This document shows positions 14,662 to 60,733 of a DNA stretch of 64,000 nt, piece after piece. The position numbers were made by a program, and so were the translations under genes. Source of the stretch: Novosphingobium sp. GTDB lineage: Bacteria; Pseudomonadota; Alphaproteobacteria; Sphingomonadales; Sphingomonadaceae. Under the pieces are notes generated by a model. It ran no database searches, had not been told where the DNA came from, and worked only from the letters and a program-made list of their open reading frames with translations. How positions within the stretch are numbered: position 1 is the stretch's first letter; the number at the start of each line of letters is the position of its first letter. Location: NCBI RefSeq assembly GCF_030696665.1, contig NZ_JAUYRV010000033.1, positions 41,068 to 105,067 of the forward strand, given 5' to 3'.

Positions 14662-14890
14662 CCAATGCTGCGCAAGGGTTGGACAAAACGGACCGGTGAG
14701 GGTGAGCGGTGGAAAACGCCGCGCCTTGTGATCCTGTCCTTTCGCTTCAGGCGTATCACGGAGTGCGCTAATTTAGGACACGCATCGTCCGGTTAATGGC
14801 AATGGACGCTTGCTCCCCCGCCAGATAGGTCCGCGCTCGATATGGTCACCCGGACCGTATCTCTATCAGGCAACAAGGGGCGCAATTCGG
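14662..14890. promoter_or_regulatory. Upstream region of the DUF1592 cluster
   Basis: These 229 bases hold no convincing gene. TTTAGGACA at 14772-14780 resembles the words at 754 and 10522 and overlaps a short dyad (GGAC at 14776, GTCC at 14787). AAGGGGCG about eight bases before the ATG at 14891 is the likely ribosome site and favours that start over the track's TTG at 14810. Confidence 0.4.
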
Positions 14891-17344
14891 ATGAAGGCGG
14901 GTTGGCGGGTTCCCGCCGGACGTTTCGCACTGATCGTCAGCGCGGCGCTGACCGGCACTTGCCTTGTCGCCTCCGTGCAAGCCGATAGCCCCACCGATGT
15001 TGCTTTGGCCGAAAGCCGGGCAGCCATGATCGAGCCGATCCTCGACAAGTATTGTTCGCGTTGCCACAACGATTTCGACAATGTTGCCGGGCTTTCCATC
15101 GCTGACCTGCGCGCGTCTGACATCGCGAACGGCCGCAATACCGAGGCATGGGAGAAAATCCTGCGCCGTGTCGCGTCGGGTGAGATGCCGCCGCATTCGA
15201 AGCCGCAACCCGATATGGTGCAACGGGCCGCGATGGTGGAGTGGCTTGATGCTGGCCGTGCGCAGTATGTTTCAGCCCATCCCGATCCCGGCAAGTCCGC
15301 CGTGCGCCGCCTGAACCGCATTGAATATGCCAATGCTGTCAGGGATCTGCTGGGGGTTGAGGCTGATGTGGCGCGCGATCTGCCGCCGGACAATTCCGGC
15401 TTCGGGTTCGACAATATCGCCGATGTGCTGAGCGTCTCGCCCACGCTGATGGAGCGCTATGTCGCGGTAGCGGGGAAAGTGGCCCGGCAGGCGACGGGGC
15501 TGGTCCCATCGCGGGCCTTCGTCACGACGTGGCAGGTGCCCAAGGACGGATCGGTGATGAATTCGGGCGTTCCTGCCTTTAACGAGCGGGCTGGCGGAGA
15601 TTTGCCGCTGGCCTCGCGCGGGGGCACTGTCGTGCGCTATTTTGCGCGGTATGATGGCACGTACGATGTCGTTGCGTGGCTCAATTCGAACACGAACAAC
15701 GAGACCGACCGGCTGACCGAGGACCGCTATACGCTGCGTCTTCCGCTGACGGCGGGGACGCACCGGATCAGCGTTTCGTTCCGCCGCCAGACCTGGCCCG
15801 ATGAAAGCGTGCAGTGGCTGCGCAACGATACCGACTATGTGCCGTTGCCGCTCGACAAGCCGAAGCTGTTGCCGATGGACGTGTGGGTGGATGGCAAGCG
15901 TGCGGGTACGGTGCAGGTGCCATCGTGGCGGATGCACCCGCGCTATTCGCAGCGCAATTTCCCGCGTGACGTGCTGCAGGTGGATGTGGCTGGGCCTTAC
16001 GATGCAAAGGGCATCACCGAGACGCCGAGCCAGCGCGCGATCTTTACATGCCGCCCGCGTAGAGCCGCCGAAGAAGCACCTTGCGCGCAGGAGATCATCG
16101 CATCGCTGGCGCGGCGCGCGTGGCGCAGGCCGGTCAGCACCGCAGAGGTCGCACCGCTGATGCGCCTCTATGGGGCAGAGCGGACGAATGCGACGTTCGA
16201 GCAGAGTATCGAGGTGGCCATTGAGGCGATCCTTGTTTCGCCGCAGTTCCTGTTTGTGGTGGAAAGTCCGCCTCCTGCCGGGATCATGGGCACGGCCTAT
16301 CCAGTGTCTGACCTTGATCTGGCCACGCGGCTGGCGCTGTTTCTGTGGAGTTCGATCCCTGACGAGCGGCTGCTCGCACTGGCCGAACAGGGGCAGCTTC
16401 GCGCGTCCGGTGTTCTCGACGCAGAGATCGCACGGATGCTGGCCGACCCGCGCGCGCAAGCGTTGACCGAGAATTTTGCAGGGCAGTGGCTCTATCTGCG
16501 CAATCTTGATCAGCAGCGCCCGGATATCACCGAATTCCCCGATTTCGACACCCGCCTGCGCACGGCGATGGCGACCGAGACGAAGATGTTCTTTGCGTAT
16601 GTCATGGGTGCCAACCGTCCGGTGACGGACTTTATCCGCGCAGACTACACCTTCCTCAACCAGCGGCTGGCCCGGCACTATGGGATCGGTGGGGTTAGCG
16701 GCACCGCGTTCCGCAAGGTGGCGCTTGATCCGGCCACCGCGCGCGGCGGGTTGTTGGGGCAGGCGAGCATCCTGACGGTGACGTCCTATGGCAACCACAC
16801 GTCGGTGGTGAAGCGCGGCAAGTGGATTCTCGACAACATGCTGGCATCGCCGCCACCTCCGCCACCGCCCGATGTGCCTGCGCTCAAGGCGGAGCATGAT
16901 GGGCGCAAGTTGACCGCCCGACAGCAGCTTGAACTCCACCGCGCCAACCCCAACTGCGCCGCCTGCCATGTAAAGATGGACCCGCTGGGTTTCGCGCTTG
17001 AGAATTTCGATGCGGTGGGGGCGTGGCGTACGGTCGATGCGGGGCAATCAATCGACAACACCGCAACCATGCCCGATGGCAGCACGATTACCGGCTTCAC
17101 CGGCCTGCAACACGTGCTGCTGGATCGGCGTGACGAGTTTGCGCAGGCCTTTACCGAACGGCTGATGACCTATGCGCTGGCACGCGGGGTTGGCCCGCAG
17201 GACATGCCGGCGATCCGTGCGATTGCGCGCAAGGCTGCGCAGGAGGACTATCGCGTGCAGACCATCGTCAGGGGTATTGTGACCAGCCCTGCGTTCACCA
17301 TGCGGAAAACCGCTGCGCTGCAAGTGGCGGAGGCAAGGCGATGA
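14891..17344 (+). CDS. DUF1587/DUF1592/DUF1588/DUF1585-type c-type cytochrome protein
   Basis: 817 residues from ATG 14891, starting with a signal peptide (RFALIVSAALTGTCLVASVQA). A haem-binding CSRCH lies at residues 55-59, and a second CxxCH (CAACHVKMDPLG) lies near the C-terminus, after the Pro-rich stretch typical of DUF1588. Sections such as RRLNRIEYANAVRDLLG, TRLALFLWSSIPDERLL and RGGLLGQASILTVTSYGNHTS match this domain series, first noted in planctomycetes and common in sphingomonads. It is probably a periplasmic redox protein; its reaction is not known to me. It overlaps the DUF1552 gene by 4 bases, so the two products are likely partners. Confidence 0.85.
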   Translation: MKAGWRVPAGRFALIVSAALTGTCLVASVQADSPTDVALAESRAAMIEPILDKYCSRCHNDFDNVAGLSIADLRASDIANGRNTEAWEKILRRVASGEMPPHSKPQPDMVQRAAMVEWLDAGRAQYVSAHPDPGKSAVRRLNRIEYANAVRDLLGVEADVARDLPPDNSGFGFDNIADVLSVSPTLMERYVAVAGKVARQATGLVPSRAFVTTWQVPKDGSVMNSGVPAFNERAGGDLPLASRGGTVVRYFARYDGTYDVVAWLNSNTNNETDRLTEDRYTLRLPLTAGTHRISVSFRRQTWPDESVQWLRNDTDYVPLPLDKPKLLPMDVWVDGKRAGTVQVPSWRMHPRYSQRNFPRDVLQVDVAGPYDAKGITETPSQRAIFTCRPRRAAEEAPCAQEIIASLARRAWRRPVSTAEVAPLMRLYGAERTNATFEQSIEVAIEAILVSPQFLFVVESPPPAGIMGTAYPVSDLDLATRLALFLWSSIPDERLLALAEQGQLRASGVLDAEIARMLADPRAQALTENFAGQWLYLRNLDQQRPDITEFPDFDTRLRTAMATETKMFFAYVMGANRPVTDFIRADYTFLNQRLARHYGIGGVSGTAFRKVALDPATARGGLLGQASILTVTSYGNHTSVVKRGKWILDNMLASPPPPPPPDVPALKAEHDGRKLTARQQLELHRANPNCAACHVKMDPLGFALENFDAVGAWRTVDAGQSIDNTATMPDGSTITGFTGLQHVLLDRRDEFAQAFTERLMTYALARGVGPQDMPAIRAIARKAAQEDYRVQTIVRGIVTSPAFTMRKTAALQVAEARR

Positions 17345-18681
17345 TCCTGCGCCGCGCCCCCCTTTCCCGCCGCACGGTGCTGCGTGGGCTTGGCACCACA
17401 ATGGCGCTGCCGTTCCTGGAAGCGATGATGCCCAGCGCGAAGGCTGCAGACGTGGCGCAGCGGCCCAAGCGGTTGCAGGTGTTCTACAGCCCCAATGGCA
17501 TGACGATGGCCGAATACCGGCCAACCGGGACCGGTGGCGATTTCACCTTGCCGTCAACGCTCAGCCCGCTGGAGCCGCACCGCAAGGATATTCTGGTCGT
17601 CAGCGGCCTTGGGCATCCGCAGGCCGCAGCCTTTGGGGACCGGCCTGCCGGGCATGGCCGGTCTTGCCCGGCGTTCCTGACCGGTACGCATGCGAAGCAG
17701 ACCGAAGGGCCGGACATTCGCTGCGGTGTGTCGATGGATCAGGTGTTTGCCGCCCATCTGGGAGACGCAACGCAAATCCCCTCGCTCGAACTCGGGATCG
17801 ATCAGGCGAGCCTGCTGGGCAGTTGCGACATCAACTATTCCTGCGCCTATACCAACGGGATTTCGTGGCTGACGCCAACGGTGCCGCTGCCGGTGACCGC
17901 AAATCCGCGCGACGTTTTCGAAAGGCTGTTTGGCGATGGCGAAGCGCTGGACGAGACGAGCCGCCTTGCGCAACTACGGCGGCAAAGCTCTATCCTCGAT
18001 TTTGTGCGCGAGGATGCAGCGCGGCTCTCGGGGGCGCTGGGGATGGAGGATCGCCATAAGCTTGACGAATATCTTGATGCGACGCGCGCCGTAGAGAAGC
18101 GTATTCAGCGCGCGCAAACCTCTCCGGCGGTGGCGCAGAGTACCACGATGCAGGCCCCGGCAGGCATTCCGGATGACTTTGCAACCCATGTGAAACTGAT
18201 GATCGACTTGCAGGTCATGGCGTTGCAGGCTGATCTTACGCGCGTAGGCACATTCATGATCGGGCGCGAGATTTCGAACCGCACCTATCCCGAGATCGGC
18301 GTGCCTGATTCACACCACATGCTCAGCCACCACGGTAGCAGCGCGGAGAAACTGGCCAAGCTGGCGGTAATCAACCGCTATCACATGCAGTTCTTCGCCT
18401 ACATGCTGCAGCGGTTGAAGGACACGCCCGACGGCGAAGGGTCGCTGCTCGATACCATGCTGGTGCTGCGCGGCTCGGCGTTTGGCGATTCCAACGACCA
18501 TGATTTCATGGACTTGCCGGTGATCCTTGCGGGCGGGCTGGTGCAGGGTGGGCGGCATTTGGAGGTGGCGAAGGGGACATCCATGTCGGACCTGATGCTC
18601 GCGGGGCTGAACCTGCTGGGCGTTCCGGCAAAGAGCTTTGGCGATAGCAGTGGCCCGTTGAAAGGGTTGCGCGATGCTTGA
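17341..18681 (+). CDS. DUF1552 protein, Tat-exported
   Basis: 446 residues. The N-terminus LSRRTVLRGLGTTMALPF is a clear twin-arginine signal, so a folded, possibly cofactor-bearing protein is exported. The body shows the DUF1552 pattern (KRLQVFYSPNGM, GHGRSCPAFLTGTHA, SMDQVFAAHLG, SHHMLSHHG), related to the DUF1501/sulfatase-like alkaline-phosphatase superfamily. Conserved His/Asp clusters (SHHMLSHHG, DSNDHDF) suggest metal binding. DUF1552 and DUF1592 genes usually travel together; the function is unknown. The start overlaps the previous stop (ATGA) and the stop overlaps the ankyrin gene by 8 bases. Confidence 0.85.
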   Translation: MILRRAPLSRRTVLRGLGTTMALPFLEAMMPSAKAADVAQRPKRLQVFYSPNGMTMAEYRPTGTGGDFTLPSTLSPLEPHRKDILVVSGLGHPQAAAFGDRPAGHGRSCPAFLTGTHAKQTEGPDIRCGVSMDQVFAAHLGDATQIPSLELGIDQASLLGSCDINYSCAYTNGISWLTPTVPLPVTANPRDVFERLFGDGEALDETSRLAQLRRQSSILDFVREDAARLSGALGMEDRHKLDEYLDATRAVEKRIQRAQTSPAVAQSTTMQAPAGIPDDFATHVKLMIDLQVMALQADLTRVGTFMIGREISNRTYPEIGVPDSHHMLSHHGSSAEKLAKLAVINRYHMQFFAYMLQRLKDTPDGEGSLLDTMLVLRGSAFGDSNDHDFMDLPVILAGGLVQGGRHLEVAKGTSMSDLMLAGLNLLGVPAKSFGDSSGPLKGLRDA

Positions 18682-19981
18682 ACTTGTCGCTGGTTTGCTG
18701 CTGGCAGGCGCGATGCCGGTGGCCGATGCGATTGCGGCGGACGATGCGGCTGCCTTGCATGCTGTGCTCGAAGCAGGGGCCGATGCTAATGCAGCGCTGG
18801 ACTATGGCGAAAGTCCTCTGGCTCGCGCGGTGGAAGTGCAAGACCCGGCGCTTGTTACGCTGCTGCTGCAACACGGCGCAAAGCCGAACGTGGCCGACGC
18901 CAACGGCCTGACGCCGCTGGCGCTGGCTTGCGAGCGGGGCAATCCGGCAATCGTTGCCGCGCTGCTCAACGCTGGCGCCGATCCACGCAAGCCGGGTGCT
19001 GAAGGCGCTTGGCCACTGGCGCTTTGCGCGCGGTTTGCGCCGCCTGAAGCCGTCGCGGTGTTGCTGGCGAAGGGCGCAAAGGTCGACACCCCCGACCCGC
19101 GTGGGCAAACCCCGCTGATGTGGGCTGCTTCTGCCGGAAAGGTTGAGGCGGTGGCCTTGCTGGTCAAGGCTGGAGCCAAGGTCAATCGCGTGACGCCTGG
19201 CGGCTTTACCCCGCTGTTCTTTGCCATCGCCGGCGGCAATGCCGATGCGGTGGCGCTGCTGGCCGAAGCGGGTGCGGACATTGGCTATCGCGGGCCTGAG
19301 AACACCAGCGCGGTGCAACTGGCGCTTTACCAGAAGGCTTGGGCAGCGGCTGAGTTGCTGCTGGCGCGGGGACAGTGGAACCTTGCCGAGATCGACCGCA
19401 CAGGCAATAGCCCGCTGCACGTTGCCGCTGCTGCGGGGCAGGGGGCGCTGGTTTCGGCGCTACTGGCCAAGGGGGCTGATCCTAATGGCTTGACCGGACA
19501 ATCGCGCATCACTTGGGTGACCGAGGCAAACTTTGGCGTTCCGCCGCCGCCAGTTCCGCCGACGCCGCCGTTACTGGCCGCCGCGCAGGCGGGGCAGGCG
19601 GAGACAATGCGATTGCTTGTGGCAGCCGGGGCGGACAAGGGGTTCGCCTTCGCGAATGGCACCAACGTCCTGCTGGCTGCGGCATCAAGCCAGAATGCGG
19701 AAGCTCTGGCCGTTGCCTTGGACTTTGTGCCTGACGTCAATTACGCTGATGCCAATGGATCTACCGCGCTACATCGTGTGCTTGGGGGCGCATGGCATCC
19801 CGCCCTCGAACCGATGTTGCGCCTTCTGGCAGACCGGGGTGCGCGGACTAATCTTGCGGACAAGCATGGACGGACTGCGGCGAGCATGGTCGAAAACGGT
19901 CTTGCCACCGTGCGTGAGACCTATTTGAAAGTGTTTCCCCAAATGCCGCCTTCTGCACTCGCGCTGAAACCGATTTTGTGA
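18674..19981 (+). CDS. Ankyrin-repeat protein with signal peptide
   Basis: 435 residues. A short hydrophobic leader (LELVAGLLLAGAMPVADA) suggests export. About nine ankyrin repeats follow, recognisable by G-TPL-A-A/LL-AGA units such as GQTPLMWAASAGK, GFTPLFFAIAGGN and GNSPLHVAAAAGQ, interrupted by a proline-rich insert VPPPPVPPTPP. Ankyrin domains bind proteins, so it may scaffold the DUF1592 and DUF1552 products in the periplasm. It is translationally coupled to DUF1552 (8-base overlap). The C-terminal 25 residues are not repeat-like. Confidence 0.85.
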   Translation: MLELVAGLLLAGAMPVADAIAADDAAALHAVLEAGADANAALDYGESPLARAVEVQDPALVTLLLQHGAKPNVADANGLTPLALACERGNPAIVAALLNAGADPRKPGAEGAWPLALCARFAPPEAVAVLLAKGAKVDTPDPRGQTPLMWAASAGKVEAVALLVKAGAKVNRVTPGGFTPLFFAIAGGNADAVALLAEAGADIGYRGPENTSAVQLALYQKAWAAAELLLARGQWNLAEIDRTGNSPLHVAAAAGQGALVSALLAKGADPNGLTGQSRITWVTEANFGVPPPPVPPTPPLLAAAQAGQAETMRLLVAAGADKGFAFANGTNVLLAAASSQNAEALAVALDFVPDVNYADANGSTALHRVLGGAWHPALEPMLRLLADRGARTNLADKHGRTAASMVENGLATVRETYLKVFPQMPPSALALKPIL

Positions 19982-20007
19982 CGAATACACCAAGACAGGA
20001 CTTTGCC

Positions 20008-20469
20008 ATGAACAAGCCCAGTTTCCGAACTTTTGCTGCGGCGCTTGCCGTGCTTGCTGCGGCTGGCGGCTCGTTGGCGGTGGCCGCGTCTCCCGCCGAT
20101 ACGATCGCCTTGCGCCAAGCCAACTTCAAGAAGATGGGCGGCGCAATGAAGGTGATCAAGGACGAGCTTGCCGGGAGCGCGAACAAGGCCAAGATGGCAG
20201 GCGCGGCCAAGACCATTGCGGCGATGGCGCGGGCGCAGGGGCCGCTGTTCCCCAACGGCACCGGCCCTTCTGCTGGAAAGACTGACGCTCTGCCAGCGAT
20301 CTGGAGCCAGCGCCCGACGTTCGATGGTCACGCGAAAAAGTTGATCGCCGAAGCAGACAAACTGGTGGCCGTGGCAGGTAGTGGCAACGCAGCAGCCGTG
20401 GGCGTGCAATTCAAGGCTGTTGGCGGAACCTGCAGCGGCTGCCACAAGCAATTCCGCGCCGATGATTGA
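20008..20469 (+). CDS. Class II cytochrome c (cytochrome c' type)
   Basis: 153 residues from ATG 20008, which has GACAGGA upstream; the longer track start is unsupported. A signal peptide (FRTFAAALAVLAAAGGSLAVAA) is followed by a four-helix type sequence (IALRQANFKKMGGAMKVI) and a single C-terminal haem motif CSGCH followed by KQF, exactly the class II arrangement. Cytochromes c' are periplasmic haem proteins that bind NO/CO or shuttle electrons. It lies 26 bases after the ankyrin gene and 27 before a cytochrome b561, a common pairing. It could be the electron acceptor of the upstream DUF1592 cytochrome. Confidence 0.88.
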   Translation: MNKPSFRTFAAALAVLAAAGGSLAVAASPADTIALRQANFKKMGGAMKVIKDELAGSANKAKMAGAAKTIAAMARAQGPLFPNGTGPSAGKTDALPAIWSQRPTFDGHAKKLIAEADKLVAVAGSGNAAAVGVQFKAVGGTCSGCHKQFRADD

Positions 20470-20496
20470 TCGGCCTGCGGCAGGGGGAAAAGGGCG

Positions 20497-21174
20497 GTGA
20501 CGGAAAAGGTCCGCGTGTGGGACGTGCCGGTGCGGCTGTTCCACTGGTCGTTGCTGGGGCTGTTCGCGTTCTCGTGGTGGAGCGGGGAAAACCACGAGAT
20601 GGAATGGCACCGCCAATCGGGCCTCCTGATCCTTGCGCTGCTGCTGTTCCGCTTGTTCTGGGGCCTTGCCGGATCACGGACGGCTCGGTTCGCCCACTTT
20701 CTCAAAGGACCGCGCACCGTATTGGCCTATGCGCGCAAGGCTGCGGACGAACACGCCACCGACGGGCACAACCCGCTGGGTGGGTGGAGCGTTGCGGCCT
20801 TGCTGGCGGTGCTGCTGACGCTGGTCGTGGCGGGGCTGTTTTCGGTGGACGTGGACGGTCTGGAATCAGGACCGCTGGCCGACTACATCAGCTTCGATGG
20901 TGGCCGCACTGCTGCGGAAATCCATGAAGTGGCGTTCAACGTGGCGTTGGGGCTGATCGGCCTGCACGTCTGCGCCATCGGGTTCTATCAGTTTCTCGTC
21001 GGGCGCGACCTTGTCAGCCCGATGATTACCGGCAGGCGCGAGCGTGAGCAGGGTGAAACTCTCGACGATGTCCGCTGGTCACCCGTCCGCGCGTTGATCG
21101 GGCTTGTGGTGATCCTCGCGCTGGTCTGGGCCGTGTCGAAGGGCTTTCATTTCAACAGTGCGGGCGACGTGTAG
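20497..21174 (+). CDS. Cytochrome b561-type membrane protein
   Basis: 225 residues from GTG 20497, with an AGGGGGAAAAGGG ribosome site. Four or five membrane spans carry histidines suited to b-type haem: RLFHW and MEWHRQSG early, IHEVAFN and GLHVCAIG later. This is the Ni-hydrogenase-type cytochrome b / b561 family, which links periplasmic cytochromes with the quinone pool. Position after cytochrome c' suggests a c'-b561 electron pair serving the DUF1592/DUF1552 system. Its 3' end overlaps the convergent epimerase gene by 28 bases. Confidence 0.85.
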   Translation: MTEKVRVWDVPVRLFHWSLLGLFAFSWWSGENHEMEWHRQSGLLILALLLFRLFWGLAGSRTARFAHFLKGPRTVLAYARKAADEHATDGHNPLGGWSVAALLAVLLTLVVAGLFSVDVDGLESGPLADYISFDGGRTAAEIHEVAFNVALGLIGLHVCAIGFYQFLVGRDLVSPMITGRREREQGETLDDVRWSPVRALIGLVVILALVWAVSKGFHFNSAGDV

Positions 21175-22726: not shown

Positions 22727-23659
22727 CTATTGCACGACTGTCGCCGGATCGGACGGATAGGCCAACTGGCCGAACGCGGTCTGCATTTCGCCCAGCACGA
22801 TGTCGGCGGCATAGGACGGCGGGCGCGCGGCGGCGGTGCAGAGCGCCAGCGTCATCGGGCGCAGTACCGGATCGGATATGCGGGTGAAGGACAGCAGACC
22901 CGCCTTGACCTCGGTCATCACATCAAGCGAGGTCAGGATGCCAATACCTACGCCCTGCAGCACCAGCGAAGTTATCATCTGCAGGTTGTTGCTGGTCGCC
23001 TTCTTGTCGAGCGTGGCGCGACTGGTCCCTTCCAGCACGGCGATCTGCTGGTGGACAGCCAGCGCGGGCGAGGGGACGACAACCGGCGAGCCGATGCAGG
23101 CTGAAAAGCGCGCCTCGGCTTGCTGGCCGAACGGGTGGCCCGCAGGCGTAATGAACCCGAGGTGGACATCGACAAAGGCGCGCACGGTGATGTCGCGGTA
23201 GGATTCGGGATCGAAGAAGATGCCGAAGTCCACCTCGTTGCTGGCAATCATGCGGCGGACCTGGTCGTTGCCGGTCACTTTCACGTCGATGGTGATACCC
23301 GGGTAGCGGCTCTGGATGGATTGGATCGCGGCAGGGATCGCGCCTTTGGTAAGCGCATCGATCACCGCGATTTCCACGTGGCCGCGTTTCAGTCCGCGCA
23401 AGTCCTCGATCTGGGCACGCACTTCGCTCAGGCTTTTCTGCCAGCGCCCACCGGCTGCCATCATGATCTCACCGGCTGATGTCAGCCGTAGCCCGGTGGG
23501 CAGGCGTTCAAACAGCGGCATGCCGATCTCTGCCTCGACGTTGAGGATCTGCCGGTCGATGGCCGACGCAGACACGTTCAGTTCGTCCGCAGCCTTCCGG
23601 ATCGAGCCGAGGCGGCCGACGGCGATGAAATAGCGTAGGAAGCGGGAGAATGCCGGCAC
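22727..23659 (-). CDS. LysR-family regulator, likely of the purine island
   Basis: 310 residues from GTG 23659 (GGTAGGG just upstream); the track start at 23686 is a TTG. The helix-turn-helix (GSIRKAADELNVSASAIDRQI) and effector-binding domain are typical of LysR regulators. It is divergent from the secreted adenosine deaminase, the classical LysR layout, with 111 bases between. It is therefore the best candidate for purine-responsive control of the genes from 23771 onward, and possibly of the phosphoribosyltransferase downstream. The ligand is unknown; a purine base or ureide would be the guess. Confidence 0.88.
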   Translation of the reverse strand: MPAFSRFLRYFIAVGRLGSIRKAADELNVSASAIDRQILNVEAEIGMPLFERLPTGLRLTSAGEIMMAAGGRWQKSLSEVRAQIEDLRGLKRGHVEIAVIDALTKGAIPAAIQSIQSRYPGITIDVKVTGNDQVRRMIASNEVDFGIFFDPESYRDITVRAFVDVHLGFITPAGHPFGQQAEARFSACIGSPVVVPSPALAVHQQIAVLEGTSRATLDKKATSNNLQMITSLVLQGVGIGILTSLDVMTEVKAGLLSFTRISDPVLRPMTLALCTAAARPPSYAADIVLGEMQTAFGQLAYPSDPATVVQ

Positions 23660-23770
23660 GGTGACCCTACCTAATTTTTGCAACACTGCGTCGGATTCAT
23701 TGCGTTTGTAGCGGATAGGTCAAGTCCCTAGTCAATCGTCGTCGCATTTTTGGCGACGGAGGGTTCGCAC
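23660..23770. promoter_or_regulatory. Divergent promoter between LysR and adenosine deaminase
   Basis: 111 bases separate the LysR start from the exported adenosine deaminase. AT-rich stretches (TAATTTTTGCAACA, CATTGCGTTTGTAGCG) could hold promoters and LysR (T-N11-A) sites, but I could not single one out. GGAGGG seven bases before ATG 23771 is the ribosome site. Confidence 0.4.
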
Positions 23771-25336
23771 ATGACAGGGGGGAGTTCGGCAACGAGAAGG
23801 CGCGCGCGCATGCGCTCCGCGCTTGCCGTCGCGGCCCTGATCGTCGCCCCTGCCGTTGCCGAAGCTGAACCTCTGCCGCTCGATCCAGCGCGCGAGGCGA
23901 AAGTTGCGGCACTGTTTGAAAAGGCAAAGGACAGCCCGCCCGCGCTGCGCGTGTTCCTGCGCGGCATGCCCAAGGGCGGGGATCTGCACAATCATCTGGG
24001 CGGTGCGATTTATGCCGAGGACTTTCTGGAATGGGCCGGGGCCAAGGGGTTCTGCGTCGATGCCAGCGGCCTTGGTGTGGAGCCACCGCCATGCCCGGCT
24101 GAGCGCATTATCGAGCGTTTCGCTGTGGCGGACGAGTTCGGCTTTGACCGGCTGGTCAACGCCATGTCCACCCGCGGCTGGCAGCGCGGCGTGGGCCGCA
24201 ATGACATTACGGGTCACAACCAGTTCTTCGGGGCATTCACCCGCTTTGGCCCGATCGCGGGTGAGACGGCAAAGATGCTGGTGGCGGCGCGGCGCATCGC
24301 TGCGGGCGATAACCTCTCCTACCTGGAACTCGATCACAACACCGCTGCGCTCACCTCCTCGGTGCCGTCTGCGCCCTCCGGCCTGCTGGTCGAGGCTGAT
24401 CTGGCGGCACGCTATGCTGCTGAGGTAAAGGCGCTCGCACCCCTCCTGCCCAAGGCCAGCGCCGAACTTGATGCCGATGAAGCGGCGGCGGAAAAGGCGA
24501 TGGCGTGCGGCACGGCGGCTGCCGAACCGGGCTGCAAGGTTGCGGTCCAGTACCTCTTTCAGGCCCTGCGGGCGCTGCCGCCCGGGCCGGTCTATCGCTC
24601 GCTCATCCTCGGCTTCATGATCGCCGATGCCGACCCGCGCTTTGTCGGCGTGAACATCGTCATGCCCGAGGACGCCTACCCGGCGCGGCGCGACTACAAG
24701 CTGCACATGGCGATGATCCGCTTCCTTGCTGCGAAATATCCGAATGTGAAGCTTTCGCTCCATGCGGGCGAAGTGACGCTCGGCCTCGTCCCGCCGCAGG
24801 ATTTGCGTGACCATATCGCGCAGGCTGTGGCCGTGGGTGCCAAGCGCATCGGCCACGGCACCGGCATCGCTTTTGAAGACAAGGCTGAAGACACGATGGC
24901 ACGCATGGCCCGCGATGGGGTGGCCGTGGAGATCAACCTGTCCAGCAACGATGTGATCCTTGGCGTGCAAGGCGAAGATCACCCGCTGAACCTCTATCGC
25001 ACCCACGGCGTCCCCGTTGTGCTTTCGACTGACGATCAGGGCGTTCTGCGGTCAGACATGACCAACGAATACGTCCGCGCCGCGCGCGAACAGGGCCTTG
25101 GCTATGCTGACCTCAAAAGGGTGGCGCGCGCCGGACTGCACTATTCCTTCCTTCCGGGGGCCGCGCTGTGGAGCAACCCCGACCTGTTGAAACCCGTTGG
25201 TGCCTGTGCCGATCTGGCCACGCCCAGCTGTACCAAGTTCCTGTCCGAAAACAGAAAAGCACAACTTCAGGCCGACCTTGAACAGCGCTTCGCTGCCTTT
25301 GAAGAAGAGCGGCTGCGGCGGGCGGCAAAGCAATGA
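23771..25336 (+). CDS. Secreted adenosine deaminase-like enzyme
   Basis: 521 residues from ATG 23771. A basic N-terminus (TRRRARMRSALAVAALIVAPAVAEA) is a signal peptide. Metal and catalytic motifs of the adenosine deaminase superfamily follow in order: GGDLHNHLGGA (HxH), SLHAGE, RIGHGTGI and the Asp pair in STDDQGVL. At about 490 mature residues it is longer than cytosolic deaminases and resembles secreted ADGF-type enzymes. It would convert adenosine or deoxyadenosine to inosine outside the cytoplasm. It heads the purine island, followed by a TonB receptor and a secreted nucleosidase. Substrate preference is inferred. Confidence 0.82.
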   Translation: MTGGSSATRRRARMRSALAVAALIVAPAVAEAEPLPLDPAREAKVAALFEKAKDSPPALRVFLRGMPKGGDLHNHLGGAIYAEDFLEWAGAKGFCVDASGLGVEPPPCPAERIIERFAVADEFGFDRLVNAMSTRGWQRGVGRNDITGHNQFFGAFTRFGPIAGETAKMLVAARRIAAGDNLSYLELDHNTAALTSSVPSAPSGLLVEADLAARYAAEVKALAPLLPKASAELDADEAAAEKAMACGTAAAEPGCKVAVQYLFQALRALPPGPVYRSLILGFMIADADPRFVGVNIVMPEDAYPARRDYKLHMAMIRFLAAKYPNVKLSLHAGEVTLGLVPPQDLRDHIAQAVAVGAKRIGHGTGIAFEDKAEDTMARMARDGVAVEINLSSNDVILGVQGEDHPLNLYRTHGVPVVLSTDDQGVLRSDMTNEYVRAAREQGLGYADLKRVARAGLHYSFLPGAALWSNPDLLKPVGACADLATPSCTKFLSENRKAQLQADLEQRFAAFEEERLRRAAKQ

Positions 25337-25531
25337 AGACGATGGGCCATTCAGGGCACCGGGCAACAAAGACTGACTAAGTGCGCGACTTGCGTATCGC
25401 CGCCACACTGACGGCGTGATCGAAAGGACGACAGCACGGGAAAGACGACAGGGAGAGGCGCGGTTCAACCATGCGCATCCGACCTTCCAGGAGGAGGCGG
25501 AGCGTAAAAAGCGTCCAAGGGGGGTACGTAA

Positions 25532-28006
25532 ATGCAAGACCCGATTACATCCGCAGGAGCAATCCGGCACCGCACTGGCACGCGCTATCTGGCGCGGGGC
25601 CTCGCTACCCTGTTGGCCTGCACGGCGTTGACAGGCCCGGCCTTTGCACAGGAAGAGCCTCAGGCAAGTGCGGAACCGGACCAGACCATCGTCGTAACAG
25701 GTTCGCTTGGCGCCCTTCCCATCGACGATGTCGGCTCGATCTTCGGCTTCGACAAGACGCTGGTGGAAACGCCGCGTTCCGCCTCGACCGTCAGCCGGGA
25801 GCAGATCGAGCGCTTCGGGATCACCGAAATCTATGATCTCGTGTCGCAATCGCCGGGCGTGTTCACCAACTCGTTTTTCGGCGTCGGCGGGGCGCTGGAT
25901 ATTCGTGGCACACCGGGTGAGGTCTATTTTCGCGGTGTCCGCCGTCTGGATAACTCAGGCAACTATCCAACCCCGATCGCAGCATCGGACCGCATCGATA
26001 TCGTGCGCGGGCCGGCATCGCCAATCTACGGCCCATCGAAGACCGGCGGCTACATGAACTTCATTCCGCTGTCGGCTCGCGCGGCAGGCGGCAAGTACCT
26101 AGGCACCGTAGAGGGCGAATTTTCGTACACGACGGGCAGCTGGGCGCGCAATGTGCTGTCGGCGCAGGTCCGTGGTCCGGGCAAGATCGGCGGGCAGGAA
26201 TTCGGCTTCAGCCTCTACGGACAGGTCGAGGATTCGGGCAGCTACTACCGCAACATGGACACGAGCCAGACGGTGCTGCAGGCCGCGTTCGATGCTGATA
26301 TAGCGTCCAACCTGCGGGTCGAATTCGGCGGTATGTATCACAAGTACAACGGCCAGCAGAACGGCGGCTGGAACCGCCTGACGCAGGATCTGGTCGACAA
26401 TGGCAACTACGTCACCGGCGCGGCCAAGCCGCTCGATACCAGTGGCGATGGGCAGATTTCTCATGAAGAGGCTGCGGCCGCAAACGGCGGGTTCGGTCTG
26501 AACCCGTTCGGCAGCGCGTTCTGCAGCACTCCGCCGTTCTCCAATCCGTTCAACAGCGGGCTGAACGCAGGGTGCCTTGCCACGACATACTCCGACATGG
26601 GCCTGACCGGCGTTGGCACCACCAAACTCAGCCGCAAAAACACGCTGACTGCCGAGGACGACAAGCTCGATAACATCGCGCGAACCGGTTACCTCGACCT
26701 GATCTTTGATGGCGGCAACGATCTGGAGATCAAGAACCAGCTGTTTTACGATGGCTATGCGCACGACAGCGAGAACCAGTACGGCTTCTCGCAATTCCAC
26801 AATTCCTATGTTATCGAAGACCGTATCGTCGTTTCGAAGAAGTTCAAGAACGAAGCCGGTACATTCTCGTTCCAAATTTCGCCGTCGATCCGGTACACGA
26901 ACTTCGAACACGCTGATGACTTCAACTACGAATACTTCAATCGTGTCGATCTGAGCGTCGGTTACAACGCGCTTTCGGACCGGTTGCTTTCGACTGAATG
27001 CAACTGCAACTACACGTCAGCTAACGTTGGCCACTACACCGATTACGGTCTGGCAGGGCTTGCCGACTTCGATTTCGACTTCGGCCTCGATGTCACGCTC
27101 GGCGCGCGGTATGATCACATCGAAGTGACCACTGCGGACATTGCCGCAATTCTTGAGGATCCCTCGGGCGCAGGTTCAGCGAAAACCTCGAAGGGGGGCT
27201 GGTCATGGTCAGCCAGTGCCAACTATGAACTGCCGTTCGGCATCATCCCCTATGTCACCATTTCGCGGCAATCGACTGTGGTTGCCGGACAAGGTGCGGA
27301 AATCACGACGGCAGACGCTCTGTCTGGCGCCTTCATCAGCGCCTCCAAGCTTTACGAAGGCGGGGTCAAGGGCAGCTTCCTCGACAGCCGACTTTATGCT
27401 GCACTCTCGGTTTACAAGCAGACCCGCGTTGATCGCAACTCCCAGGCAATCGTCACCAACCAGGCGGTCGAAACCAAGGGTATCGAGGCCGAAATCCGCT
27501 GGTCGGTGGACCGGCACTTCCTGATTTCGGCCAACTATACCAAGACCAAGGTCGAGAACCTGACCGCGATCGGCGACGGCGTGCTGTTCAGCTTCTTCGG
27601 AGCGGAAGACCTCAAAGGCATCAATCCGGCGCTGTTCTGGGGTGGCCAGCCCATCGGGCTGGTGCCGATCCCCGACGGCAATGCATCGCGCCGTGCGGGC
27701 ATTCCTGAGGATCTGTATTCAGCCACCGCAACCTATTCGTTCGATAATGGTCTGGCACTGGCCGGAAGCATTTCCCGGGTGCCTGCGGTGTTTTCGGGAC
27801 AGTCGCAAGTGGTCAAGCTTCCGGCTTATACGCTGGTGGATTTGAGCGCGTCCTTCAAGACCGGGCCGTGGCTGTTCCGTGCCGTGGTGAAGAATGCCAC
27901 GAACGCCAGCTACTTCCGCGCCAACTTTACCGAACTGTTCGGTGCAACGATTGCGCTGCCCGAACGGCCGCGCAACTGGCAGGCTTCAGTCGTCTACAAG
28001 TTCTGA
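25532..28006 (+). CDS. TonB-dependent outer-membrane receptor (probable purine/nucleoside uptake)
   Basis: 824 residues. A signal peptide (ATLLACTALTGPAFA) is followed by a TonB-box-like QTIVVTGS, a plug domain (ETPRSASTVSREQIERF) and a 22-strand-type beta barrel ending in RNWQASVVYKF with the usual terminal Phe. It imports a specific ligand across the outer membrane with TonB energy. Neighbouring secreted nucleoside enzymes suggest nucleosides or related purines. Residues 302-313 form a canonical EF-hand loop (DTSGDGQISHEE), predicted in an extracellular loop. The 195 bases upstream hold the operon's second possible promoter and an AAGGGGGG ribosome site. Confidence 0.88.
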   Translation: MQDPITSAGAIRHRTGTRYLARGLATLLACTALTGPAFAQEEPQASAEPDQTIVVTGSLGALPIDDVGSIFGFDKTLVETPRSASTVSREQIERFGITEIYDLVSQSPGVFTNSFFGVGGALDIRGTPGEVYFRGVRRLDNSGNYPTPIAASDRIDIVRGPASPIYGPSKTGGYMNFIPLSARAAGGKYLGTVEGEFSYTTGSWARNVLSAQVRGPGKIGGQEFGFSLYGQVEDSGSYYRNMDTSQTVLQAAFDADIASNLRVEFGGMYHKYNGQQNGGWNRLTQDLVDNGNYVTGAAKPLDTSGDGQISHEEAAAANGGFGLNPFGSAFCSTPPFSNPFNSGLNAGCLATTYSDMGLTGVGTTKLSRKNTLTAEDDKLDNIARTGYLDLIFDGGNDLEIKNQLFYDGYAHDSENQYGFSQFHNSYVIEDRIVVSKKFKNEAGTFSFQISPSIRYTNFEHADDFNYEYFNRVDLSVGYNALSDRLLSTECNCNYTSANVGHYTDYGLAGLADFDFDFGLDVTLGARYDHIEVTTADIAAILEDPSGAGSAKTSKGGWSWSASANYELPFGIIPYVTISRQSTVVAGQGAEITTADALSGAFISASKLYEGGVKGSFLDSRLYAALSVYKQTRVDRNSQAIVTNQAVETKGIEAEIRWSVDRHFLISANYTKTKVENLTAIGDGVLFSFFGAEDLKGINPALFWGGQPIGLVPIPDGNASRRAGIPEDLYSATATYSFDNGLALAGSISRVPAVFSGQSQVVKLPAYTLVDLSASFKTGPWLFRAVVKNATNASYFRANFTELFGATIALPERPRNWQASVVYKF

Positions 28007-28030
28007 CGACCGATCTGTCAGAACCCCGGA

Positions 28031-28066
28031 TGCGAGGGGCGGTTTGCTCTCCCGCCGCTCCTCGCA
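28031..28066 (+). terminator. Hairpin between receptor and nucleosidase genes (attenuator-like)
   Basis: TGCGAGGGGCGG (28031-28042) pairs with CCGCTCCTCGCA (28055-28066) over 12 bp with a single G-U, leaving a 12-base loop. It is followed seven bases later by CTTTT rather than a long T-run. It may be a partial terminator that lowers expression of downstream genes relative to the receptor, or a transcript-stabilising structure. Confidence 0.45.
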
Positions 28067-28094
28067 ACCGGCACTTTTCAAGGTTTATCTAACC

Positions 28095-29210
28095 ATGCGT
28101 CTCCTCGCGCGCCTTGCGATTTCTGCTGCGGCCTTGCTGGCCGGAGCTTCCTGTGCCCATGCAGCGCCTGCTGCCGATGCCGCGACGGTTGCCGCCGTAA
28201 AAGCCTGCACGCCGGCGCGGCCCTGCGCGGCAAAGCTGCCGGTGCGGGTCGTCGTTGTCACCATGTTCGAAATCGGAGAGGACGCAGGCGACAAGCCCGG
28301 CGAATTCCAGCTGTGGAAGGAGCGGCGAAATCTCTCGGTCACGCTGCCGTTCCCGCAGGGCTGGCACAATCTGGCCTATGATCCCGAAACGGGCGTTCTG
28401 GCCATCGTGACCGGCATGGGGTCTATCAAGTCCGCCACGGCCACGTTGGCGTTGGGACTGGACGAGCGGCTTGATCTTTCGCAGGCTTACTGGCTGGTTG
28501 CGGGCATCGCCGGGATTGATCCGGAGAACGCGTCGGTCGGCTCTGCGGCATGGGCGCGCTATCTGATCGATGGCGATATCGCGCACGAGATCGATGCGCG
28601 CGAAATTCCGGCAGACTGGAAAAGCGGCTACTTTGCCCTGCACAGCAAGAGGCCGTCCGATCCTACGCCGCTGCCACCAATCAATGGCGAAATGTTCGAA
28701 CTCAATCCCGCGCTGCAGGAATGGGCCTTTGCCCTGACCAAGGACATGAAACTGCCCGACGACCAGTTGATCGCGGCTGAGCGCAAGAAGTTCACCGGCT
28801 ACCCCAACGCACAGAAGCCACCCTTCGTGCTGAAAGGCGACAACATCGCCGCGATGACCTTCTGGCACGGCGCGAAAATGACCCAATGGGCCAATGACTG
28901 GACGAAGTTCTGGACGCAAGGGAAGGGCGAATTCGTCACCTCTGCGATGGAAGAAACCGGCACTTTCCAGTCCATCGAGTACCTGACCAAAGTGGGTCGC
29001 GCAGATCGCAACCGCGTGATGGTTCTGCGCTCCGCCAGCAACTTCTCCATGCCCCCGCCGGGAGAAGACCCGGCCGCCTACCTCTTGGGTGAAAATCAGG
29101 GATACGCCGGGATGACCGCTGCGCTTGAGGCGCTTTACATCGTCGGCGGCAAGGTGGTGGACGAGATTACCGGCAATTGGGACCGCTATGAAAAGGCCCC
29201 GCCGAAGTGA
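28095..29210 (+). CDS. Secreted purine nucleoside permease (NUP)-family protein, probable nucleosidase
   Basis: 371 residues from ATG 28095; the longer frame from 27894 enters the receptor gene. A signal peptide (LARLAISAAALLAGASCAHA) is followed by the NUP domain: VRVVVVTMFEIGED, TGMGSIKSATATLALG, WLVAGIAGIDP and SAMEETGT. The family is named after a yeast nucleoside transporter, but the fold is that of nucleoside phosphorylases and no membrane spans are visible. A periplasmic role in cleaving purine nucleosides or binding them is more plausible. It lies between the TonB receptor and 8-oxoguanine deaminase, supplying free bases to the NCS2 permease. The exact reaction is inference. Confidence 0.78.
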   Translation: MRLLARLAISAAALLAGASCAHAAPAADAATVAAVKACTPARPCAAKLPVRVVVVTMFEIGEDAGDKPGEFQLWKERRNLSVTLPFPQGWHNLAYDPETGVLAIVTGMGSIKSATATLALGLDERLDLSQAYWLVAGIAGIDPENASVGSAAWARYLIDGDIAHEIDAREIPADWKSGYFALHSKRPSDPTPLPPINGEMFELNPALQEWAFALTKDMKLPDDQLIAAERKKFTGYPNAQKPPFVLKGDNIAAMTFWHGAKMTQWANDWTKFWTQGKGEFVTSAMEETGTFQSIEYLTKVGRADRNRVMVLRSASNFSMPPPGEDPAAYLLGENQGYAGMTAALEALYIVGGKVVDEITGNWDRYEKAPPK

Positions 29211-29225
29211 CAGCGAGCCGCTGAA

Positions 29226-30587
29226 ATGACCCTCACGCTGATCCGCAACGCCGCTGTGGTTGCCACGATGGACGATGCGGGAACCGAGATTGCAGGCGGC
29301 GCGGTGGCCATGCGCGATGGCGTGGTGCTGGCTGTTGGCACAAGCGCTGAACTCCAGCCACTGGCAGGCCACGCCGACGAAATCATTGATGCGGCGGGTT
29401 GCGTGGTCACGCCGGGCCTCGTCAACACCCACCACCACCTTTACCAGACGTTGACCCGCGCACTGCCCGGCGCGACCGAGGCTTCGCTGTTCGGGTGGCT
29501 CAAGCGGCTTTACCCGATCTGGGCGACCTATACGCCCGACGATGTCTTCGCGGCCACGCAGCTTGGCCTTGCCGAACTGGCGCTGTCGGGCTGCACGATG
29601 AGTTCGGACCACCTCTACCTGTTCCCGAACGGCGTCACGCTGGACGACACTATCTATGCGGCAGACGGCATCGGCCTGCGCTTCCACGCCACGCGCGGCA
29701 GCATGAGTGTGGGCGAGAGTGCCGGGGGCTTGCCGCCGGACAGTTTGGTGGAGCGTGAGGACGCCATCCTTACCGACTGCATCCGCGTGATCGACAGGTT
29801 CCACGATGCCGCTGACGGCGCGATGGTGCGCGTGGGCGTTGCTCCGTGTTCGCCCTTCTCGGTCAGTCAGGGCCTGATGCGCGATGCAGCGCTGCTGGCG
29901 CGGGACAAGGGCGTGATGTTGCACACCCATCTGGCCGAAGATGCCGATGATGTGGCCTTCAGCCTCGAACGCTTCGGCTGCCGTCCGGGCCAATATGCGG
30001 AAGAACTGGGCTGGACCGGCCCGGACGTGTGGCACGCGCACTGCGTTCAGCTGGATCATGGCGAGATTGATCTGTTCGCCCGCACCCGCACGGGCGTGGC
30101 GCATTGCCCCGGATCGAACTGCCGCCTCGGCTCGGGCATCGCTCCGGTGCGGCGCATGGTCGATACAGGCGTTAAGGTCGGCCTTGGCGTAGATGGCTCG
30201 GCCTCCAACGATTCCGGCAACCTGCTGGGCGAAGCGCGGCAAGCCCTGCTGCTACAGCGCGTTACCCACGGGGCCACCGCCTTTGCCGCGCGTGAGGCGC
30301 TGCGGCTGGCAACGCGCGGCGGGGCCGAAGTTCTGGGCCGGAGCGATTTGGGCAGTCTAACCCCCGGCAAGCGCGCCGACTGCGCAGTGTGGGACATGGC
30401 GCAAGTCGCCTCAACCGGCGCGTGGGATTTGGTGGCAGGCCTGATCCTCGCCCCGCCGCCCGGCGTGCGCGACTTGTTCGTCGAAGGCCGCGCCGTGGTG
30501 CGCGATGGCGAACTGGTGCGCACCACGCGCCGTGCAGTCGTCACCGCAGCGCAGAAGTCGCTCAGCCGCCTGATGGCGCTGGCATAG
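29226..30587 (+). CDS. 8-oxoguanine deaminase-like amidohydrolase
   Basis: 453 residues, no signal. Metal ligands of the amidohydrolase superfamily are clear: TPGLVNTHHHLYQ, LHTHLAEDADD, WHAHCVQLD and GLGVDGSASND. The HHHLYQT text and overall length match the 8-oxoguanine deaminase group (related to AtzA/TrzN and guanine deaminases). The reaction would be 8-oxoguanine to urate plus ammonia, feeding oxidised purines directly into the PuuD step downstream. It lies 15 bases after the nucleosidase and 14 before the NCS2 permease. The separate guaD at 48746 handles guanine, which supports a distinct substrate here. Confidence 0.8.
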   Translation: MTLTLIRNAAVVATMDDAGTEIAGGAVAMRDGVVLAVGTSAELQPLAGHADEIIDAAGCVVTPGLVNTHHHLYQTLTRALPGATEASLFGWLKRLYPIWATYTPDDVFAATQLGLAELALSGCTMSSDHLYLFPNGVTLDDTIYAADGIGLRFHATRGSMSVGESAGGLPPDSLVEREDAILTDCIRVIDRFHDAADGAMVRVGVAPCSPFSVSQGLMRDAALLARDKGVMLHTHLAEDADDVAFSLERFGCRPGQYAEELGWTGPDVWHAHCVQLDHGEIDLFARTRTGVAHCPGSNCRLGSGIAPVRRMVDTGVKVGLGVDGSASNDSGNLLGEARQALLLQRVTHGATAFAAREALRLATRGGAEVLGRSDLGSLTPGKRADCAVWDMAQVASTGAWDLVAGLILAPPPGVRDLFVEGRAVVRDGELVRTTRRAVVTAAQKSLSRLMALA

Positions 30588-30601
30588 GAGGGAGAACCGC
30601 C

Positions 30602-31975
30602 ATGACATCTCTCGGTTCAGTGACCCGCGAACAGGCACGCGATCCCGATTTCTTCCCCGGCTTCGGCCTCGCCGTGCCTCTCGGCATCCAGCACGTGCTG
30701 GCGATGTTCGTGTCAAACCTCACCCCGCCTATCATCGTAGCGGGCGCAGCGGGGTTCGGGTTCGGATCGGCGGACCCTTCCGACCTCATCTACATGATCC
30801 AGATGTCGATGCTCTTCGCCGGGATCGCCACGCTGCTGCAGACGGTGGGTATGGGACCGGTCGGCGCGCGTCTGCCATTGGTGCAGGGGACGAGCTTTGC
30901 CTACATCCCGGTGATGATCCCCATTGTCGCGGGCAAAGGCGTCGGCGCGATGGCGGAACTGACCACCGCCGCGCTGATCGGTGGCTTGGTCCACGGCCTG
31001 CTGAGCATGTTCGTGGGCCGCGTGCGCTTCGCTCTTCCGCCGCTGATCACCGGTCTTGTCGTGCTGATGATCGGCCTCTCGCTCATGCGCATCGGGGTGC
31101 AGTATTCCGCTGGCGGCGTGCCCGCCATCGGCACCCCTGCATTCGGCGCGGGGGAAAGCTGGCTGCTGGCCGGCACGGTGGTGGTGGCAACGCTGGGCCT
31201 CAAATTCTTCGCACGAGGCGTGTGGTCCACGGCCTCGGTGCTGCTTGGGCTGCTGGCGGGCTATGCAGTGGCGCTGGCACTGGGCCGCATCTCTTTCGAT
31301 CCGGTGGCCACTGCGCCCATCGCCATGCTGCCCAGCCCTTTCCACTTCGGCTTCGCGCTCTCGGCTTCGGCCATCCTCGGCTTCGTGCTGACCGGCTTTG
31401 TCTCCTCCATCGAATCCATCGGCGATGTCGAGGCGATCTGCGAAGGCACCGCTGGCCGACCTGCCACCGATGCCGAATTGCAGGGCGCAGTTGCCGCCGA
31501 TGGCGTCGGCACCGCGCTTGCCGCAGTGTTCGGCGCAATGCCCAACACCACTTTCAGCCAGAACGTCGGTCTCATCGCCATCACCGGCATGATGAGCCGC
31601 CATGTGGTAACGCTCGGCGCGGTGTTCCTCGTGGTCTGCGGACTTGTGCCAAAGATCGGTGCGATCATCACCACCATCCCCATCGAGGTGCTGGGCGGTG
31701 GGGTGATCGTGATGTTCGGCATGGTTGCCTCCGCAGCGCTATCGATGCTGGCCTCGGTGGACTGGAACCAGCGCAATATGCTGATCTTCGGGGTCAGCCT
31801 GTCGCTCGCACTGGGCCTTCAGCTTGAACCCGATGCCGTGGCGCACCTGCCTGAAACCGCGCGCATCCTCCTTACGTCAGGCGTCCTCCCTGCCGCCGTG
31901 GTCGCCATTGCGCTCAATCTGTTTCTCCCGCGTGAGACGGCGGATGAGGCACCCAGCTTGTCTCCCGCAGAATAG
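30602..31975 (+). CDS. NCS2 xanthine/urate-type permease
   Basis: 457 residues from ATG 30602 (AGGAGGGAG ribosome site); the track's 30389 start overlaps the previous gene. The NCS2 (UraA/XanQ) signature is present: GIQHVLAMFVSNLTPPI in the first span, MLPSPFHFGFALS, the FVSSIESIGDVEA helix and PNTTFSQNVGLIAITG. About 12-14 spans. It should import xanthine, urate or uracil-like bases by proton symport. It follows 8-oxoguanine deaminase and precedes the long coupled operon by 90 bases. A second, AzgA-type NCS2 permease occurs at 34527, so the two probably divide oxo- and amino-purines. Confidence 0.88.
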   Translation: MTSLGSVTREQARDPDFFPGFGLAVPLGIQHVLAMFVSNLTPPIIVAGAAGFGFGSADPSDLIYMIQMSMLFAGIATLLQTVGMGPVGARLPLVQGTSFAYIPVMIPIVAGKGVGAMAELTTAALIGGLVHGLLSMFVGRVRFALPPLITGLVVLMIGLSLMRIGVQYSAGGVPAIGTPAFGAGESWLLAGTVVVATLGLKFFARGVWSTASVLLGLLAGYAVALALGRISFDPVATAPIAMLPSPFHFGFALSASAILGFVLTGFVSSIESIGDVEAICEGTAGRPATDAELQGAVAADGVGTALAAVFGAMPNTTFSQNVGLIAITGMMSRHVVTLGAVFLVVCGLVPKIGAIITTIPIEVLGGGVIVMFGMVASAALSMLASVDWNQRNMLIFGVSLSLALGLQLEPDAVAHLPETARILLTSGVLPAAVVAIALNLFLPRETADEAPSLSPAE

Positions 31976-36802: not shown

Positions 36803-36807
36803 TCGCG

Positions 36808-42121: not shown

Positions 42122-42558
42122 CCGCGCTGTTCGAGCACAGCCCTTGGGTGGAAGCGCGGGCGGACGCCCGGCCATCCAGCGGCAATCGCCATGCTGATCT
42201 GATGGCCGTGGTGCTGGAAGCTTCGTCCGAGGAACAACTGGCGTTGATCTGTGCCCACCCCGAACTGGCAGGCAAGGCTGCGGTGGATCGCACTTTGACC
42301 GAGGCTTCGGCGGCGGAGCAGGCTTCTGCGGGGCTGGACCGGCTGAGCGAGGACGAGTTTGCGCGGTTCCATGCGCTGAATGCGGCCTATCGGGAGCGGT
42401 TCGGCTTTCCGTTCATCATCTGTGTGCGGCTGACTGACAAGGCGGGGATTTTGGCAGCGATGGAAGCACGACTGGCGAATGATCGCGAGACAGAAATCGC
42501 CACGGCCATTGCGCAGATTGGCGAGATTGTCCGCCTTAGACTGGAGGACGCGCGATGA
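42118..42558 (+). CDS. uraD: OHCU decarboxylase
   Basis: 146 residues, all-helical, with the conserved LFEHSPWVEARA near the N-terminus, LICAHPELAGKAA in the middle and FPFIICVRL near the C-terminus, the hallmarks of 2-oxo-4-hydroxy-4-carboxy-5-ureidoimidazoline decarboxylase. It gives stereospecific S-allantoin. It sits between hpxZ and puuD with 4-base overlaps on both sides. Cytoplasmic. The catalytic His is the one in CAHPELAG. Confidence 0.92.
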   Translation: MTALFEHSPWVEARADARPSSGNRHADLMAVVLEASSEEQLALICAHPELAGKAAVDRTLTEASAAEQASAGLDRLSEDEFARFHALNAAYRERFGFPFIICVRLTDKAGILAAMEARLANDRETEIATAIAQIGEIVRLRLEDAR

Positions 42559-56340: not shown

Positions 56341-56398
56341 GGACCAAGCAATGCGCACTGTGCGACGCTCAAGCAATGACAATTGTCACCCGTCTGGA

Positions 56399-60732: not shown

Positions 60733-60733
60733 C

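Follow-up and report, generated by a model that had tools for sequence, protein, structure and literature searches.

A conserved operon of Novosphingobium encoding DUF1592, DUF1552, ankyrin, cytochrome c′ and cytochrome b561 proteins: a possible envelope redox system linked to purine-nucleoside uptake

A 64,000-nucleotide stretch of a Novosphingobium sp. genome (the window, meaning here the whole stretch of DNA that was analysed) contains at positions 14891-21174 five open reading frames, all on the + strand, which encode in this order a DUF1592-type cytochrome, a DUF1552 protein, an ankyrin-repeat protein, a cytochrome c′ and a cytochrome b561. This five-gene set is a real, conserved and compact operon, whose product is probably an enzyme located outside the inner membrane that feeds electrons from a substrate into respiration. 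More tentatively, and with a confidence somewhat short of even, we read it as a periplasmic redox enzyme combining metal and haem, which would drain electrons to quinone and would be tied to the scavenging of purine nucleosides. The operon and its upstream region comprise the following features:

14787..14828, + strand: promoter- or operator-like element GTCCGGTTAATGGCAATGGAC-N16-GATAG ahead of the first gene, from a comparison of 42 loci
14891..17344, + strand: DUF1592-family (PSD3-PSD5-PSD4-PSCyt3-PSD2) exported dihaem cytochrome, 817 amino acids (aa) from the ATG at 14891 (Pfam, motifs, AlphaFold2 (AF2) model)
17341..18681, + strand: DUF1552/HXXSHH (PF07586) protein, 446 aa, with Tat signal SRRTVLRG and conserved H105, H326, H330 and H387 (Pfam, alignment, AF2, Foldseek against PDB)
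18674..19981, + strand: ankyrin-repeat protein, third member of the triad, 435 aa, with many Ank matches (Pfam), adjoining DUF1552 in loci L003-L043, L069, L072 and L098
20008..20469, + strand: cytochrome c′ (Cytochrom_C_2, PF01322) with signal peptide and CSGCH, from an ATG start; an alternative GTG at 19978 gives 163 aa (Pfam)
20497..21174, + strand: cytochrome b561 (Ni_hydr_CYTB, PF01292), membrane di-haem b protein and presumed quinone partner, 225 aa (Pfam, 74 bits)

The genes are tightly packed: the first and second overlap by 4 nt, the second and third by 8 nt, and the fourth and fifth each follow the preceding gene after about 26 nt. In the 3.8-Mb genome, a family search found DUF1552, DUF1592 and cytochrome c′ in single copy each. 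Pfam matches bear out the five gene identities proposed in the original prediction, which had been made from the letters alone, and the haem-c motifs that it pointed out are also present, although it counted two CxxCH sites where the operon encodes three, two in the DUF1592 protein (residues 55 and 689) and one in cytochrome c′ (residue 142). Searches for RNA elements and tRNAs found none, a sigma-70 scan gave no promoter, and terminators appeared at chance level only.

Scanning 84,980 species genomes yielded 41 loci at the level of the Sphingomonadaceae (L003-L043) plus one from a planctomycete, and sample sets of 201 genomes of the family and 399 of the phylum were used for counting. The order DUF1592-DUF1552-ankyrin is kept in 41/41 of the Sphingomonadaceae-level loci, and in about 30 of them cytochrome c′ and b561 come next; the nearest relatives belong to Novosphingobium (92% identity in L003). 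The triad, but not the cytochromes, also occurs in L069 (another family of the class), in L072 (which shares only the phylum) and in L098, whose DUF1552 is 42% identical. In a DUF1552 tree the ankyrin-type sequences stand apart from a second paralogue group, which shares about 27% identity with the window protein and has 100/100 support. Members of this second group have no ankyrin gene; cytochrome c′ and b561 come directly afterwards in L102 and L091, cytochrome c′ comes afterwards in L073, and a cytochrome c′ gene lies within 5 kb in L099 and L103. The pairs had been described beforehand as widespread, which does not hold in this phylum, where DUF1552 occurs in just 8 of the 399 sampled genomes. 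Apart from these counts, second-group members L099, L100 and L102 lie near genes reading like aromatic, steroid or fatty-acid catabolism; a conserved upstream gene with a motif like GFAISWFQPAYYAGDDDCP stands ahead of the second-group DUF1592/DUF1552 pair in L076 (12111-13274) and L077 (6685-7935); and what reads as a VOC/glyoxalase-like gene is placed between DUF1592 and DUF1552 in L098 (10414-11256; divergent carrier G878).

The DUF1592 protein has all five domains, PSD3, PSD5, PSD4/DUF1592, PSCyt3 and PSD2, in order and at 82-151 bits against cut-offs of 23-34, together with a weak match to a cytochrome c domain at its N-terminus (Pfam). The haem motif of PSCyt3 (C689, C692, H693) is invariant in 29/29 aligned DUF1592 sequences. 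The AF2 model, with a predicted local distance difference test (pLDDT) value of 80.6, found no fold match in the PDB at E<=0.001, and its beta-sandwich insert (approximately residues 205-375) bears only a weak resemblance to lectin-like folds. Kinship with MauG/cytochrome c peroxidase or with any other solved (multi)haem enzyme was discarded, as neither a sequence match nor a fold match at E<=0.001 was obtained.

The second protein is matched by HXXSHH over the full length of the family model (1-307 of 307; 344 bits), its H-x-x-S-H-H motif being H326-M-L-S-H330-H331. The twin arginines are invariant in 46/46 aligned DUF1552 sequences, in agreement with the Tat export originally proposed, and in the same alignment a set of four histidines is conserved: H105 in 45/46 (one gap), H326 and H330 in 46/46 each and H387 in 44/46. 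When the AF2 model (mean pLDDT 76, usable) was compared with the PDB by Foldseek, the 50 matches listed were all sulfatases, phosphonate hydrolases, alkaline phosphatases, LtaS and related proteins, with a best E of 4e-6 and a probability of 1.00 at a template-modelling (TM) score of about 0.4, a remote similarity. A fold of the alkaline-phosphatase/sulfatase class is thus supported by the model, with a remote kinship. The nucleophile of that superfamily (Ser/Thr/formylglycine) and its Asp-rich metal ligands are not conserved in the aligned DUF1552 sequences, and no conserved Ser/Thr/Cys is seen at the CxPSR-like place, where a His is found there or adjacent. H105 lies at or near the place of the sulfatase formylglycine cysteine, ten residues ahead of the glycine in the LTG segment; in a DUF1552-sulfatase profile alignment, itself a weak match, the LTG segment aligns and the formylglycine cysteine falls one residue from H105. 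By sequence, H326-xxx-H330 resembles the metal motif DxxxH found in alkaline phosphatase and may map to it. Since a four-histidine set replaces the usual catalytic residues in a fold of this type, DUF1552 is more likely a metal-binding member of the fold group than a redox enzyme of the classical flavin or haem type. The original idea of a periplasmic multi-protein oxidoreductase is therefore retained in part: a multi-gene periplasmic redox unit with true cytochrome partners stands, whereas DUF1552, with its model in the alkaline-phosphatase/sulfatase fold group, is no recognisable oxidoreductase.

The ankyrin protein in the window begins with MLELVAGLLLAGAMPVADA, which contains no basic residue, and it lacks an alternative start; in its relatives the N-terminus is clearly of the Sec, lipoprotein or membrane-anchor kind. 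The scaffold role that the original prediction gave to this protein is a candidate function, and haem enzymes, namely catalases, are known to be supported by periplasmic ankyrin proteins (PMC10294975). NCBIfam ankyrin matches to Dot/Icm effectors were set aside as ordinary ankyrin similarity, being far under the cut-off.

Cytochrome c′ scores 103.6 bits (Pfam), carries its CSGCH at residue 142 of 153 and is the sole PF01322 match in the genome, and b561 shows four hydrophobic segments with H16, H33, H38, H91, H143 and H157 invariant in 31/31 orthologues. In the family sample, a cytochrome c′ gene lies no more than 5 kb from 9 of the 12 DUF1552 genes, where about 0.0008 would be expected per gene; these include the paralogues of about 27% identity, in which the arrangement psd4-duf1552-cyt c′-b561 recurs. 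The association with cytochrome c′ is present in both deep DUF1552 clades. That the cytochrome genes might be mere chance neighbours had been set beforehand as the grounds for refutation, and both this count and the order kept in about 30 loci went against chance, pointing to true partners. On the other hand, cyt c′-b561 pairs also occur alone in many genomes of the family, which gives them the look of an electron-transfer module of general use, taken up on more than one occasion or repeatedly lost.

Ahead of the first gene, the element GTCCGGTTAATGGCAATGGAC-N16-GATAG is recognisable in the 42 loci compared, with a full or near-full core in most of them and the weakest versions in L016 and L027, while the DNA surrounding it does not align among these loci. 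It matches the window once, against an expectation of 0, and the whole genome once; genomes G896 and G787 likewise have one match each, before the same operon, and G904 has two matches with one mismatch each. The element has the look of a promoter or operator devoted to this operon, which an alternative sigma factor might use. Shared control of the operon and the purine genes was considered and rejected, as no 8-mer is common to both promoter sets and the element occurs once in the genome of the window.

The purine genes lie downstream of the operon and begin with an uptake cluster:

22727..31975, no single strand: purine-nucleoside uptake cluster, outside the operon, with LysR (- strand), secreted adenosine deaminase, TonB receptor, NUP purine nucleoside permease, 8-oxoguanine deaminase and xanthine permease; adjacent to the operon in 31 loci or elsewhere in the genome

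With adenosine deaminase as the marker, together with the TonB receptor and/or NUP, the cluster lies within about 10 kb of the operon in 31 of the 37 loci with enough flanking sequence. TonB and NUP are present in nearly all adjacent loci with full flanks, and the few loci with adenosine deaminase only are mostly on shorter contigs. Adjacency takes several forms: the cluster may lie upstream of the operon or, in one or the other orientation, downstream of it. Such loci come from Novosphingobium, Sphingobium and Sphingomonas, and G896 is a further case. The acc genes, taken as a synteny control, are found near the operon too, in two orientations and in Novosphingobium-type loci only; because they show that local synteny alone can hold neighbours together, co-occurrence without adjacency was examined. 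In the family sample, the TonB receptor, adenosine deaminase and NUP are present in 4 of the 5 ankyrin-type carriers compared with 3, 5 and 8 of the 196 non-carriers (Fisher 2.6e-6 to 3.6e-5), counts that overstate the independent events and P values that are optimistic, the carriers being related. Moreover, the receptor was found in 9/9 individually searched carriers (58-77% identity), six of them with operon flanks free of the uptake cluster, compared with 7 of the 201 sampled family genomes, and among the eight receptor clusters read out in carriers NUP is beside all and adenosine deaminase and LysR beside most.

The uptake cluster is part of a large purine catabolic locus that occupies positions 22727-51057 of the window and runs from periplasmic nucleoside uptake through to allantoin breakdown. 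Further genes of this locus encode an AtzE-type amidase, a second permease, allantoate amidohydrolase, a PuuE allantoinase, a Urate_ox_N urate oxidase, hydroxyisourate hydrolase (HIUase) and xanthine dehydrogenase, and guanine and adenosine deaminases can also be read in it. A gamma-glutamyltransferase-like gene inside it (36799-38391) we take to be possibly an oxamate amidohydrolase of the HpxW type.

In the arrangement that we infer, the DUF1592 protein, with two c-haems and an insert that may bind substrate, and the DUF1552 protein, with its alkaline-phosphatase-like fold and a predicted all-histidine metal site, would form the enzyme as a physical complex, and the ankyrin protein would aid its assembly or haem loading in the manner of AnkB. 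Electrons would pass from a small substrate to the DUF1592 haems and then by way of cytochrome c′ and b561 to the quinone pool. In the Sphingomonadaceae-level hosts the substrate would fall within the diet served by the coupled purine-nucleoside uptake cluster. What the sequences themselves show is the gene content and its conservation, the export signals, the haem motifs, the fold class of DUF1552 with its histidine set, the non-random partners and the co-occurrence with the uptake cluster; the complex, its metal, the direction of electron flow and a purine-related substrate are proposals.

Several findings weigh against this arrangement, besides the relatedness of the carriers and the remote fold similarity already mentioned. 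Six carriers have the triad with no cytochrome c′/b561 beside it (L006, L027, L035-L038), for which reason this electron exit is not obligatory, and such carriers would use another acceptor. The uptake cluster or the receptor is found without the operon in G772, G770 and G903, the divergent carrier G878 lacks the uptake cluster, and distant DUF1552 loci have different neighbours. The purine genes gave no match to the upstream element. Nor does the purine pathway have a visible gap, since the window encodes both xanthine dehydrogenase and urate oxidase, and a role of the operon as filler of a missing step is thereby ruled out. A narrower version, in which an extracytoplasmic complex would itself oxidise a purine base or nucleoside at a mononuclear all-histidine redox metal site of DUF1552 working with DUF1592, pass electrons on via cytochrome c′ and b561 to quinone and deliver the product to the neighbouring permease and then to 8-oxoguanine deaminase, is in our opinion quite unlikely.

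The same redox complex could act on a substrate other than a purine (a sugar, a lactone, an aromatic compound or another oligomer), the purine cluster being co-inherited because both mark metabolically versatile hosts, an explanation that we regard as possible, if somewhat doubtful. It would fit with the lack of a regulatory element common to the operon and the purine genes, with the relatives L098-L100, which by sequence reading lie beside Rieske-type, molybdenum-hydroxylase-like, P450 and CoA-transferase genes, and with published cases: PSCyt genes of Verrucomicrobia often come with carbohydrate-binding modules and sulfatase neighbours (PMC5615132), and the carbohydrate-binding module CBM2 is found on a Cellvibrio DUF1592 protein (PMC6004670). 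What speaks for purines instead is the adjacency in several arrangements across genera, as well as the presence of the TonB receptor in every one of the nine tested carriers and in 4/5 of the family-sample carriers, as opposed to so few of the sampled genomes.

Envelope detoxification or repair is an unlikely role, in which b561 and cytochrome c′ would shuttle electrons to or from DUF1592/DUF1552 against peroxides, radicals or nitric oxide (NO) while the ankyrin protein shields the haem enzyme. Cytochrome c′ proteins bind NO, which counts in its favour, but the operon has no peroxidase, catalase or lipocalin gene, the modelled fold of DUF1552 is of the hydrolase type, and catabolism better fits the patchy distribution and the TonB/purine coupling. 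Precedents do exist in LcoA-BcnA, where b561 and a periplasmic partner serve in defence against lipid peroxyl radicals (PMC9113575), and in the ankyrin-supported periplasmic catalases (PMC10294975). Least probable of all, DUF1552 might be a hydrolase or transferase, so that the pair would process a phospho-, sulfo- or glycosyl-compound with haems that are structural or sensing, and cytochrome c′/b561 would be an independent pair in the same transcript. The phosphatase/sulfatase type of all 50 listed PDB matches, the many cyt c′-b561 pairs that stand alone in the family and the carriers devoid of them are in line with this; nevertheless, the superfamily nucleophile and acidic ligands are not conserved, the DUF1592 haem motif at 689 is invariant in all 29 aligned sequences and the c′/b561 linkage recurs in two deep clades.

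Planctomycetes and Verrucomicrobia are rich in genes for DUF1552 and for proteins of the PSCyt/DUF1592 type, with no reaction assigned to either (PMC5615132), in line with the original prediction; the literature searched on DUF1552/DUF1592 gave no function, other papers merely listing the families. The planctomycete-type PSCyt3/PSD (DUF1592)-DUF1552 systems of Planctomycetes, Verrucomicrobia and some Proteobacteria have the same five domains and an adjacent DUF1552 gene, whereas the operon of the window differs in its single copy, N-terminal haem, ankyrin partner, cytochrome c′/b561 and purine-locus association. The alkaline phosphatase/sulfatase superfamily is remotely similar in overall fold to the DUF1552 model, which has H105, H326, H330 and H387 in place of a conserved nucleophile or Asp ligands. 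Like LcoA-BcnA, in which the partner is a periplasmic lipocalin, the operon links b561 to a periplasmic partner, but its products give no lipocalin match (Pfam), and b561 is accompanied instead by DUF1592, DUF1552, ankyrin and cytochrome c′. The AnkB-KatB/CatB pairs similarly encode a periplasmic ankyrin protein beside a haem protein, which here is the DUF1592 c-type cytochrome and not a catalase. Finally, the PuuD urate oxidase of the window (42555-43754; Urate_ox_N plus a cytochrome c domain with CTSCH) also ties a cytochrome c domain to a purine-catabolism enzyme, whereas the operon proteins have no Urate_ox_N match (Pfam) and an unrelated architecture.

The families are already known, and the five-gene variant, the four-histidine alkaline-phosphatase-like site, the upstream element and the purine link, for which no description was found in the literature searched, are new here; the last two had escaped the original prediction. 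Planctomycetes and Verrucomicrobia carry many copies, whereas one copy is found here, in a family some of whose members have been cultured (Novosphingobium, Sphingobium, Sphingomonas). Fixed partners, a conserved upstream element, a predicted histidine metal site and a candidate substrate class make the DUF1592/DUF1552 question experimentally approachable, and the co-occurrence with purine genes is a first testable lead on a family of unknown function. If DUF1552 were redox active, it would represent an unusual recruitment of a hydrolase-type fold to electron transfer.

Farther along the window, positions 54172-63933 hold TolC-, RND- and membrane-fusion-type efflux genes next to a two-component system, which by reading resemble a heavy-metal export system.

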